Shown here: positions 30,486 to 34,906 of the stretch, one piece after another
Numbering within the stretch: the stretch's first letter is position 1
Layout: each line of letters opens with the position of its first letter
Assembly: GCF_018860745.1 (NCBI RefSeq)
Contig: NZ_JAHKPY010000014.1
Location: 186,001-250,000, forward strand
Length of the DNA stretch: 64,000 nt
Direction: 5' to 3'
Source: Zobellia uliginosa
Lineage (GTDB): Bacteria > Bacteroidota > Bacteroidia > Flavobacteriales > Flavobacteriaceae
Made by a program: the position numbers and the translations under genes
The notes under the pieces: model-generated
What the model saw: the letters and a program-made list of their open reading frames with translations, nothing else
Told to the model about the DNA's origin: nothing
Databases searched by the model: none

Positions 30486-31007
30486 GCTATACCAATGTTT
30501 TAAGTTTATAAAGAATTTTCTAAGCTTGCAAAGATAAGAAATATTGATAATTCTTTTCTACAGGTAGAATTCCTATACATAGACTACCAAAAAAAGTGGA
30601 AGACAAAAAAGAGCCTTGGTAAATTACCGAGGCTCTTGTTGACCGTTCCGATTTTTCTTTTTCATAGCATCTTTAAAAAACACATAAAAAAGGAACTGGT
30701 CACTATTGCCCCCTATCACTAAAAAGAGAGCTTATTCGAGTTTGTTTCCGATAATAAAATCAGAACAATATTTTAAATAAGAAACACTACCTTTAAATGG
30801 GTTGCGCTAGGGAAACAATATTTAATAAACACTTCTCTCTTAGACGCATAAGAAAAGTAGGCCTTACATCCAAAACATTTATTTTCGAAAAAATTAACGT
30901 GTTGAGAATAAGTGAAAAAGTATTGCCTCATTTTAAGAAAATGAATCATAGAACTGGCATTATGATAAAAGAAATGGTAATTTAGCAACCCTTAAAAAAA
31001 AGAAAAT
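30486..31007. other. 520-bp divergent intergenic region between trhO and recA
   Basis: Holds a trhO -7 box on the minus strand (TATCTTTG, 30536-30529) and a minus-strand intrinsic terminator at 30605-30637. The terminator has no annotated gene behind it, so the ~370 bp between it and recA may encode an untranslated minus-strand RNA. Two small ORFs (about 60-70 codons, one per strand) have compositions unlike proteins and are not called. No tRNA, tmRNA or RNase P RNA is recognisable. Confidence 0.4.
30605..30637 (-). terminator. Orphan intrinsic terminator upstream of trhO
   Basis: AAGAGCCT...GGT-loop-ACC...AGGCTCTT hairpin (30609-30637). Read on the minus strand it is followed directly by TTTTTTGTC, as expected of an intrinsic terminator. 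Both flanking genes point away from it. Confidence 0.6.
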
Positions 31008-32086: not shown

Positions 32087-32159
32087 TTTAACCATAGCTT
32101 TAGACTGCATCACGCAACCCTTGTACTAATTTTTCATCTATTAAGAAAATTGAAGTACA

Positions 32160-32673: not shown

Positions 32674-33246
32674 TTGGGTCTAGAAGAACTCATAAATAAC
32701 TGTAAAGACGGCAACAGAAAGGCGCAAGAACAATTGTACCGGGATTATTCCCGCACCTTGTTTGGCATCTGCCTAAAGTATTCGCGCAACCGTACGGAGG
32801 CCGAAGATAATTTGCACGACAGTTTTATGGTTATTTACGAAAAAATAGGACAGTTTAAATTTAAAGGGTCGTTTGAGGGATGGTTAAAACGTATAACCGT
32901 TAATACGGTGCTCCAAAAATATCGTAAAGAAGAACACCTAAGTTTAGTGACAGAAAATACTGAAGAGGCGGAACAGGAAGTAGTTGGGGATTTTGAGAAT
33001 ATAAGCCTAGAAACTTTACTGAAACAAATACAAGAGCTACCGGACAAATATAGATTAACATTCAACCTATATGTTCTTGATGGGTATACCCACAAAGAAA
33101 TAAGTGAGCTTTTAGGAACAACGCAGGGGACATCAAAAAGTAACCTTGCGCGGGCCCGAAAACTTTTAAGAGAAAAAATAGAGATTACAAAGAATAAAGC
33201 CATCATTGGTCTACTCATCTTCCTTTTACTGGGATTTTGCGTTTAA
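32674..33246 (+). CDS. ECF-type sigma-70 factor with hydrophobic C-terminal tail
   Basis: A 190-residue extracytoplasmic-function sigma factor that would direct RNA polymerase to a stress or envelope regulon. Region sigma2 spans about 20-84 (YSRNRTEAEDNLHDSFMVIY is the 2.1-2.2 helix) and sigma4 about 118-168 (YTHKEISELLGTTQGTSKSN is the helix-turn-helix). Residues 175-190 (AIIGLLIFLLLGFCV) form a hydrophobic stretch long enough to touch or partly enter the membrane, unusual for a sigma factor. The start is TTG; no ATG is available in frame at a suitable place. It is followed 55 bp downstream by a predicted anti-sigma/outer-membrane barrel protein. Confidence 0.88.
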   Translation: MGLEELINNCKDGNRKAQEQLYRDYSRTLFGICLKYSRNRTEAEDNLHDSFMVIYEKIGQFKFKGSFEGWLKRITVNTVLQKYRKEEHLSLVTENTEEAEQEVVGDFENISLETLLKQIQELPDKYRLTFNLYVLDGYTHKEISELLGTTQGTSKSNLARARKLLREKIEITKNKAIIGLLIFLLLGFCV

Positions 33247-33301
33247 CCCTTGAAAAAAGTACATCAAAAAAACAAAATACCAAGTACCTAAGCATTGAAG
33301 A

Positions 33302-34906
33302 ATGAGTAAGAAAAATATAGATAATTTGTTCCAAGAAAAGTTTCGCGACTTTGAGGAGGTTCCCGATGAAAAAGTCTGGAATGCCATTGCCGCTTCTTTG
33401 GACAAAAAGAAAAAGAAAAGAGTTTTCCCTATCTGGTGGACATTAGGTGGGGCAGCCGCAGCTGCCATTATTGTCCTCATCATGTTTTACCCTTTTACGC
33501 AAAATACATCAACTTCTAACATAATAACGGATGTAGAAAAAGTTGATGGTGGCCCTGAGAGTAAGGGAAAAAATACCAATGAGTTTATTTTAGACAATGA
33601 CGAGCAAGTGGTTGCAGGCGAATCCAATCTAAAGCCTATTAAAAAAGGAGCTTCCGAGATTTTTGTGGATAAAAAATCAAACTCAAATACAGAAACTAAA
33701 AAACTAAACGAAAGGTTAGAGGCATCCAGAAAAGACAATGGCCACACTAATGGTCTTAAGCCCGATTTAGACACTCAACTTGTTCAAACTAGAAAAAAAG
33801 AAGATGCGGTACACACCCAAACCTATTCCAGAGCATCTAACAAAATCAAGAGCACTTCTATTAATCAAATAGATTCAGAAATTGCTTCGAGATCAAATAC
33901 CTCTGACTCAAATAATGACAATTTATCTTCCAAAAGTACGCCGCTTCTTACCACAAGTATTGCTAAACATGGTAATGAATCTAATATCAAAAATTCTAAT
34001 GTTGATGAAGGAATAAATGAAAATTCGATATCCAAAACAGAGGTAGCTGAAAACCTAATAATTCCTGAAGAAGAGCAAAAGGAAGCGCAAGAAACCGAAA
34101 AGAAATCCATTTTTGATGAGATTAAAGCCGAAGAAGAGATTGTTGATGTAGAAAAAAGTGGAAGGTGGTCCGCAGGACCCACTATTGCTCCGGTGTATTA
34201 CAACGGATTAGGTGAAGGATCCCCAATAAATTCCATCTTCAACGAAAATTCAAAATCGGGTAACACCAATCTTAGCTATGGCCTGAGCGTTGCTTTTGCT
34301 ATCAATAACAAACTGAGTATAAGGTCCGGAGTGAACAAAGTAGATTACGGTTATGACACCAATGGCGTTGGTTTCTCATCTACACTACAAGAAGCTTCAA
34401 CAGAAAAATTAACAAATATAGATTATGCGGGCACGGCTAAAAACATAGTGGTTACAGGCCAAAACAGCAATTTTAATAGCTTATCAACCTCATCTGATGC
34501 CATGTTCGCTTTTGAGGTTTCTAATAATTCTAGTTCTCCGGAACGCAACGGTACCATGGCTCAGCAATTTGGGTACTTAGAAGTTCCTTTAGAGCTAGAT
34601 TATGCTTTGATAGACGGTAAATTTGGGGTGAACATCCTTGGAGGAATAAGTTCATTATTCTTAATAGACAATTCCGTGACCCTCACTTCCGGAGAACTTA
34701 TTACGGAAATAGGCGAAGCCAATAATGTAAATTCCGTTAACTTTAGTACAAATATCGGTTTTGGGGTAAACTACAAATTTACCCCAAAGATACGTTTCAA
34801 TCTGGAGCCCGTTTTTAAATATCAACTGCATACATTTTCGGATGTATCCGGAGATTTTAGACCGTTTTCCATTGGAGTGTATAGTGGCCTTAATTTTAAA
34901 TTCTAA
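33302..34906 (+). CDS. Predicted dual-membrane-spanning anti-sigma-like protein with C-terminal beta-barrel
   Basis: A 534-residue protein with no N-terminal signal peptide. Residues 1-41 are charged and helical (NIDNLFQEKFRDFEEVPDE), resembling the sigma-binding end of short anti-sigma factors. Residues 42-64 form one membrane helix (WTLGGAAAAAIIVLIMFY). Residues 66-285 are a Ser/Asn/Lys/Glu-rich, low-complexity segment, long enough to cross the periplasm. Residues about 288-534 are amphipathic strands of an outer-membrane beta-barrel, ending SGLNFKF with the terminal Phe typical of barrels. This order (cytoplasm, inner membrane, periplasm, outer membrane) matches the Dma anti-sigma type described in Bacteroides thetaiotaomicron. 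The topology is inference from sequence. Confidence 0.8.
   Translation: MSKKNIDNLFQEKFRDFEEVPDEKVWNAIAASLDKKKKKRVFPIWWTLGGAAAAAIIVLIMFYPFTQNTSTSNIITDVEKVDGGPESKGKNTNEFILDNDEQVVAGESNLKPIKKGASEIFVDKKSNSNTETKKLNERLEASRKDNGHTNGLKPDLDTQLVQTRKKEDAVHTQTYSRASNKIKSTSINQIDSEIASRSNTSDSNNDNLSSKSTPLLTTSIAKHGNESNIKNSNVDEGINENSISKTEVAENLIIPEEEQKEAQETEKKSIFDEIKAEEEIVDVEKSGRWSAGPTIAPVYYNGLGEGSPINSIFNENSKSGNTNLSYGLSVAFAINNKLSIRSGVNKVDYGYDTNGVGFSSTLQEASTEKLTNIDYAGTAKNIVVTGQNSNFNSLSTSSDAMFAFEVSNNSSSPERNGTMAQQFGYLEVPLELDYALIDGKFGVNILGGISSLFLIDNSVTLTSGELITEIGEANNVNSVNFSTNIGFGVNYKFTPKIRFNLEPVFKYQLHTFSDVSGDFRPFSIGVYSGLNFKF

Follow-up and report, generated by a model that had tools for sequence, protein, structure and literature searches.

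A recA-linked sigma factor and predicted dual-membrane anti-sigma protein of Zobellia uliginosa, with a candidate promoter motif and regulon

The window analysed here, a stretch of 64,000 nucleotides (nt) from Zobellia uliginosa (contig NZ_JAHKPY010000014.1, positions 186,001 to 250,000), carries the genes of an extracytoplasmic function (ECF) sigma factor and of a 534-residue protein, referred to below as the long protein. As read from the DNA, the two share a gene row with a lipoprotein gene, behind a single promoter-like site (Table 1). The pair is well supported as a module of the Dma/Reo type, a known kind, and its genes probably form an outer-membrane stress switch comparable to Dma/Das and EcfO-Reo; the promoter, the predicted regulon and a structured RNA are the new content. 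Dma-type anti-sigma factors have been described for gut Bacteroides and Phocaeicola, with triggers that the available text of these reports presents as unclear (PMC13088901, PMC9308784, PMC13114119). The module described here is a widespread recA-linked gene set in one family of environmental bacteria, and its sharp promoter word makes the regulon a directly testable gene list. Outer-membrane-state sensing in Bacteroidota would thereby be tied to specific genes, which encode lipoproteins of the surface, a very small membrane protein and an RNA.

Pfam places Sigma70_r2 at residues 21-86 (E 5.8e-12) and Sigma70_r4_2 at residues 113-165 (E 2.1e-15) of the sigma factor, TIGR02937 scores above its cut-off, and the presence of regions 2 and 4 within a short protein identifies the ECF type. 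The open reading frame (ORF) of the long protein follows after 55 bp. A search with the long protein matched 125 of 149 sampled family genomes, and a set of 81 loci was assembled from the window and 80 loci taken among the matches listed. The sigma gene adjoins the long gene in all 81, comprising the window, 68 recA-linked loci and 12 paralogous loci elsewhere, and for this reason the pairing is not attributed to chance. At the 69 recA-linked loci, called the main loci below, the usual order is recA, lipoprotein, sigma and long gene, followed at some distance by plsC and trpS. The two genes share one frame in 27 of the 81 loci, where they can be read as one chain through the intervening stop or stops.

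The long protein probably spans the envelope from the cytoplasm out to the outer membrane. Its N-terminus is charged, a membrane helix (residues 42-64) and a low-complexity region (65-288) can be read from the sequence, and PF13568 (OMP_b-brl_2) matches residues 309-500 at 30.3 bits against a cut-off of 27. The terminal Phe is found in 78 of 81 homologues. The low-complexity region, or tether, spans 224 residues, is rich in S, N, E and K, and has Trp, Tyr, Met and Cys contents that round to 0%. Mean identity to the window protein across 39 of the 80 homologues amounts to 59% in residues 1-41, 12% in 65-255, 32% in 256-288 and 53% in the barrel. The tether varies from 122 to 269 residues (median 205; 81 proteins), and because it is kept in length and not in sequence, it fits a physical tether. 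A search of PDB sequences with the long protein returned no match at E<=1.

Structural support comes from an AlphaFold model of an ortholog, locus L032, whose sigma factor and long protein were modelled as one chain in place of the window protein, with an alignment of 118 rows from 22 of the 27 in-frame loci and from single proteins. Its mean predicted local distance difference test (pLDDT) score is 75.8 and its predicted template modelling (pTM) score 0.47. The sigma domains exceed pLDDT 90, with the linker at 63-81, and the N-terminal domain of the long protein reaches 91-97 over fused residues 211-240, forming two helices; short strands appear at 211-213 in this domain and at 101-103 in the sigma factor. 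The membrane helix (253-270) has pLDDT 61-75, the tether (274-448) stays below 50, and the barrel consists of eight strands mostly above 90. Foldseek matched the barrel to OmpA (E 9.4e-8) and to NspA (TM-score 0.71 on target), and for the sigma part the best hit by E-value was SigW bound to the anti-sigma RsiW (0.62-0.66). Residues 1-41 are presumed to form the interface with the sigma factor. An earlier sequence-only reading of this DNA had described a sigma factor with sigma2 and sigma4 regions, followed at 55 bp by a 534-residue protein with a charged N-terminus, a helix at 42-64, about 220 low-complexity residues, and a barrel ending in Phe. The Pfam matches, the ORF coordinates and the sequence itself bear this layout out, and the barrel, for which that reading had proposed structure prediction as a check, is modelled in L032 as an eight-stranded, OmpA-like one.

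The same order of parts with an adjacent ECF sigma factor is found in Dma1/Dma2-Das1/Das2 of Bacteroides thetaiotaomicron, likewise in the Bacteroidota, as far as the consulted part of the source goes (PMC13088901). The sequence-only reading had also suggested a flavobacterial relative of Dma/Das, which agrees with the presence of all four structural parts and with profile matches to Bacteroidaceae-like barrels; its further proposal, that the protein senses the outer-membrane state directly, is here a hypothesis. In hhalign, the long-protein profile aligned with two Bacteroidaceae-like proteins that share its layout, over the barrel only (probability 96.7, E 4.3e-10); the N-terminal part of these two was also matched by a hidden Markov model, and both adjoin sigma and NigD genes. 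The sigma profile (A3) matched the nigD-adjacent sigma factors of L316, L317 and L322 at E 8.8e-43, 6.6e-47 and 1.4e-49. Unlike Dma/Das, the present system has an immunoglobulin (Ig)-like lipoprotein in a gene row beside recA and a clade-specific sigma tail, and small lipoproteins, not polysaccharide utilization loci, make up most of its predicted targets (which include one SusD-like gene, L195).

Likeness to EcfO-Reo of Phocaeicola vulgatus and B. fragilis extends to a regulon with surface lipoproteins, here a predicted one. Reo is described as spanning all compartments, the P. vulgatus nigD gene M0N98_03762 carries the next locus tag to ecfO-reo (03761-03760), and NigD surface lipoproteins belong to the regulon, according to the sections seen (PMC9308784, PMC13114119). 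These sections further report that an anti-sigma mutant of P. vulgatus changes 15 genes, all of which are changed in the same way by the toxin BcpT (PMC9308784), and that ecfO-reo are the most upregulated genes under BcpT or under bacteroidetocin A, a BamA inhibitor (PMC13114119, PMC9308784).

The motif GCAACC-N15-YATCT, which lies upstream of the lipoprotein gene, or of the sigma gene where no lipoprotein gene was found, is strongly supported by its distribution as the sigma factor's own promoter, by which the operon would be autoregulated. When the best site within 900 nt was taken, all 69 main loci showed GCAACC, exactly 15 nt, and then either CATCT (53 loci) or a five-mer one letter off (16 loci; TATCT among the rows listed). 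The motif is absent at 15-nt spacing from the 12 paralogous loci, ten of which lack GCAACC and two of which have a weak site at 17 nt. Across 60 family genomes, CGCAACC-N15-YATCT was matched 242 times, in 53 of the genomes, and the reversed pattern 9 times; genome G125 contains many identical motif-like copies, probably repeats rather than promoters, which inflate its count. Of 90 genomes that have the anti-sigma gene, 88 contain the motif; of 24 that lack the gene, 1 does (Fisher 1e-20). One genome, G127, was assigned to neither group: it had no match in the initial search, yet encodes a divergent relative of 643 aa and contains the motif at four sites.

Within the genome of Z. uliginosa itself, the strict CGCAACC form gave 3 matches against 0 for the control. 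Among the matches to the looser GCAACC-N15-YATCT, L111, L113 and L115 were judged to be chance, as the C before GCAACC is absent, and so were two of the seven matches to CGCAACC-N17-TCT, namely L329, with no nearby ORF, and L331, with an ORF at +10. At the Bacteroidaceae-like loci no convincing copy of the GCAACC motif was found beside nigD or the sigma gene. Among the papers listed on ECF21, flavobacterial anti-sigma factors and vesicles, GCAACC promoters and Flavobacteriaceae ECF regulons, no description of the motif or the operon was seen.

The claim that the same motif drives a small predicted regulon, consisting of surface lipoproteins, a membrane protein of about 30 aa and the structured RNA, is likewise strongly supported. 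It was evaluated on 126 distinct sites, which combine the loci from the searches with 60 sites chosen among the matches listed, the latter excluding operon and recA-side sites, and which do not form a random sample. An ORF of at least 60 aa begins within 75 nt at 75 of them, and a strict lipobox is present in 46 of these 75 ORFs compared with 27 of 337 control genes, drawn from 20 regions (400 kb) with 0 motif sites. Without the 13 operon sites the proportion is 33 of 62 against the same 27 of 337 (Fisher p 1.9e-15), and 35 of the 46 lipobox starts fall 15-29 nt after the -10 element. At least two acidic residues occupy the five positions after the lipobox cysteine in 41 of the 46 motif-linked lipoproteins versus 13 of the 27 control ones; such an acidic stretch resembles the surface-export signal of Bacteroidetes. 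The Pfam families of the 62 downstream genes are mixed (LVIVD 5, Lipocalin_4 4, RmlD 3, DUF3575 3). Before the rmlD-type genes of L146, L167 and L169, the motif stands 66 nt upstream and partly inside coding sequence.

A further group of candidate targets emerges among the sites that lack such an ORF. A hydrophobic ORF of 24-45 aa is present at 17 of these 51 sites against 33 of 4000 random positions, and 15 of the 17 resemble, by eye, one family of about 30 aa, with L155 and L210 set aside. The member in the Z. uliginosa genome, MLTFFGIIFVLLVVNIVLLLLSTDRAKKTR, starts 42 nt after a CGCAACC-N15-CGTCT site (L333, contig C12 near 73760); it is a single-helix membrane protein of about 30 residues, for which Pfam gave no family over the cut-off. 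The five likely sites in this genome precede the operon, an outer-membrane protein (DUF3575) with a lipoprotein (L114), a DUF5004 lipoprotein (L116), the small protein and the RNA.

The RNA is a candidate structured transcript of 175 nt, divergent from recA and claimed for the Zobellia/Maribacter-type clade only. Its promoter-like site reads TATCT at L336, L338 and L339 and CATCT at L341 in relatives of the genus, and many of the main loci have a motif-type site on the opposite strand at the recA side. The transcript has a fold z-score of -5.48. RNAalifold was applied to 13 sequences (L043 was left out of 14, and the search pattern did not capture L335, L337 and L340 among the seven genus regions) and returned two helices with 19 pairs, 6 of them with changes on both sides. 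After a third helix was added by eye, 90.7% of cells were paired against 31-56% when slid by 1-3 columns, a control that favours the structure because it was derived from the same 13 sequences. Shuffled alignments gave 84.6% paired cells, and 0 of 500 reached 90.7%. Changes on both sides affect 11 of the 25 pairs, a number reached by 3 of 500 shuffles, and 34 cells compared with 12.8 in shuffles (0 of 500); further pair types were not unusual in number (132 of 500 shuffles). Rfam gave four matches in the region, all far below gathering scores.

Between the terminator-like hairpin of the RNA and the start of trhO lies a TAnnTTTG box (TATCTTTG), which the consulted part of one study treats as a sigmaA-type box (PMC9723704). 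Since the hairpin is followed by this box before trhO, trhO need not be the target of the RNA. What follows the same divergent site in other clades is a different sequence, including short peptides recognized by eye; those in the divergent recA-side transcripts of L117, L131, L135 and L141 end in C-K-[AL]-D-G-G.

Two features of the sigma gene stand out. At the 69 main loci, its aligned start codon is TTG in 55, GTG in 13, ATG in none and AGT in 1, the last probably an alignment slip, and ATG opens the long gene at 66 of these loci; a weak start for the sigma factor against an ATG for its anti-sigma would hold the sigma in deficit until release. The second feature is the hydrophobic C-terminal tail, with a maximum Kyte-Doolittle value of 3.05 over 15 residues. 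It occurs at 11 of the 81 loci (the window and ten related ones, maximum hydropathy >1.1). In the L032 model it forms a helix at low confidence. Pooled pairwise ratios of nonsynonymous to synonymous differences (pN/pS) within the genus, from 9 sequences whose pairs are not independent, amount to 0.30 in the tail and 0.13 in the sigma body. The gap between the genes is 21-58 bp in 9 of the 11 tail-bearing loci, unlike the near-overlap usual elsewhere, and L033 and L039 retain a 4-bp overlap. Judged on these sequences, the tail is real and under selection within the genus. The sequence-only reading was right to notice it, and had suggested that this extra part could keep the sigma factor at the membrane until release; being absent from 70 of the 81 loci, it is a clade-specific extra and no general part of the mechanism.

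In the proposed mechanism, residues 1-41 would keep the sigma factor bound at the inner membrane for as long as the barrel is correctly inserted. Failure of insertion, or damage to the outer membrane, would lead to cutting of the tether or helix or to loss of tension, which would free the sigma factor, and the lipoproteins and RNA then made would rebuild or shield the surface, with the operon lipoprotein providing feedback. Release upon failure of outer-membrane assembly is here presumed by analogy with the related systems. Escherichia coli sigmaE-RseA offers a parallel as an operon-borne membrane anti-sigma with an envelope regulon in which sigmaE drives small RNAs, as predicted here; RseA is not known to possess a barrel or a tether that reaches the outer membrane. 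Tentatively, and with somewhat less than even confidence, the system may be regarded as a flavobacterial counterpart of enterobacterial sigmaE, in which the barrel anti-sigma signals to the cytoplasm whether it has itself been assembled, and the sigma factor, once released, turns on the lipoproteins, the inner-membrane protein of about 30 residues and the recA-divergent RNA.

Other explanations can be offered. The long protein could be an ordinary outer-membrane protein with an uncleaved signal as its helix and a coincidental sigma neighbour, and the barrel is in fact its sole part with a Pfam match over the cut-off. This is very improbable in view of the invariable adjacency of the sigma gene, of the N-terminal 41 residues, conserved at least as well as the barrel, and of the published relatives Reo, Dma1 and Dma2, which are reported to function as anti-sigmas. 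The motif, in turn, could be that of a different ECF sigma factor or of another regulator, with the operon as just one target among others. In Flavobacterium psychrophilum, the ECF-type motif SM6 (-10 CGT) lies upstream of yceA, an ECF sigma/anti-sigma pair, rmlB and the RNA Rfp11, and several sigma factors are allowed for it in the part of the report consulted (PMC9723704); SM6 may overlap with the present circuit. The single site in G128, a genome without the anti-sigma gene, points the same way. Assignment to another regulator is nonetheless improbable, as 23 of the 24 gene-less genomes have no motif, and the motif stands at every main sigma locus, directly before the sigma gene where the lipoprotein gene was not found.

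As to the trigger, the barrel could act as a ligand- or damage-gated receptor, in which an extracellular glycan, toxin or other surface component alters the barrel and thereby pulls the tether, with neither assembly failure nor proteolysis. Pardue 2026 hypothesizes, in the text available, that Dma2 senses an unknown surface glycan (PMC13088901), and the barrel is far better conserved than the tether. A disordered tether of 122-269 residues would, however, be expected to transmit little force, and in P. vulgatus both a BamA inhibitor and a toxin elicit a response of ecfO-reo (PMC13114119, PMC9308784, as far as consulted); a gated receptor is rather unlikely. It has similarly been considered that the sigma tail anchors the sigma factor in the inner membrane next to the anti-sigma helix until release. 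The tail has an IIG-like core in the 11 loci, is present in 9 of 9 genus members and shows a pN/pS of 0.30. Against this stand its absence from most loci, its length of only 14-17 residues, a selection looser than that on the body, the low confidence of the modelled helix, and the loss of the usual near-overlap alongside 9 of the 11 tails, which may be read-on sequence; an anchoring role is doubtful.

Several observations weigh against the stress switch and its regulon as proposed. The structure model is that of an ortholog and was read from its pLDDT values, secondary structure and pTM of 0.47, and the trigger is proposed by analogy. G104 and G126 carry the gene without the strict motif, with AAGCAACC at their operons, and G128 is the sole gene-less genome with the motif. 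Among the 24 gene-less genomes, G023, G033 and G131 have N-terminal-only matches; the 24 are mostly small genomes (1.3-3.1 Mb, except G033 at 4.8 Mb) that may be related by descent, and the operon's own promoter contributes to the co-occurrence of motif and gene. In the Z. uliginosa genome alone there is no clear enrichment of the looser patterns: GCAACC-N15-YATCT gave 6 matches against 4 in the control, and CGCAACC-N17-TCT gave 7 against 3. Finally, 51 of the 126 sites have no ORF of 60 or more aa within 75 nt, and some lie inside coding sequence or repeats (G125).

The operon lipoprotein was also compared with NigD. Its AlphaFold2 (AF2) model has pLDDT 93.7 and seven strands, the CSLDDD stretch from the lipobox cysteine is export-signal-like, and homologues are present in 58 of the 81 loci, in two of which (L092 and L106) the gene lies at another position. 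Identity with NigD by sequence was rejected: the Pfam search gave no match to PF17415 (NigD_C), the profile comparison with NigD aligned the signal peptide only, and the comparison with short NigD_C-like proteins was weak (probability 31.5). Foldseek found no match at E<=0.001, and the profile had one match among PDB sequences, at E 0.91. Likeness to NigD-like lipoproteins (structures 3k0y, 5bmt, 3nqi) is kept as a possible structural resemblance, and the present lipoprotein differs from that of EcfO-Reo in being single-domain and without sequence match to NigD. NigD_C was not found in the Z. uliginosa genome, in 5 relatives or in the few family genomes listed, and of the 4 genomes with the main NigD family, 3 have nigD next to the sigma gene. 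Short NigD_C-like proteins of 147-174 aa occur in other families (L309-L314), where several adjoin secreted-protein genes.

Table 1. Features of the gene row and the recA-side transcript, in positions of the window
Feature	Position	Strand	Basis
Candidate structured RNA, 175 nt, intrinsic-terminator-like hairpin at its end, divergent from recA	30605..30779	-	fold z-score, paired changes
Promoter-like site of the RNA, CGCAACC-N15-TTTCT	30780..30806	-	motif search
Putative operon promoter, CGCAACC-N15-CATCT	32113..32139	+	69/69 recA-linked loci; own-genome match
Ig-like lipoprotein, first operon gene, 142 aa	32160..32588	+	AF2; CSLDDD from lipobox cysteine
ECF sigma factor gene	32674..33246	+	190 aa, TTG start (ORF and Pfam)
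Hydrophobic C-terminal tail of sigma	33193..33243	+	residues 174-190; hydropathy, pN/pS
Dual-membrane-type anti-sigma gene (long protein)	33302..34906	+	534 aa (ORF)
Predicted cytoplasmic N-terminal domain, residues 1-41	33302..33424	+	conservation; fused model of L032
Predicted inner-membrane helix, residues 42-64	33425..33493	+	sequence; fused model of L032
Predicted periplasmic tether, residues 65-288	33494..34165	+	low complexity; pLDDT of L032 model
Predicted outer-membrane beta-barrel, residues 289-534, terminal Phe	34166..34903	+	PF13568; L032 model; Foldseek

In the window, LysR-type and YeiH-like genes intervene before plsC and trpS. No second copy of the long protein was found in the Z. 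uliginosa genome at E<=10. By the long protein, the nearest named genomes found are Zobellia species (62-65% identity), followed mostly by Maribacter. On the scale of the phylum, 56 of 247 sampled genomes match the long-protein alignment at E<=1e-5; full-length matches come mainly from the same family, and many others cover the N-terminus only. Viral contigs gave one distant match to the sigma factor, at 28% identity.

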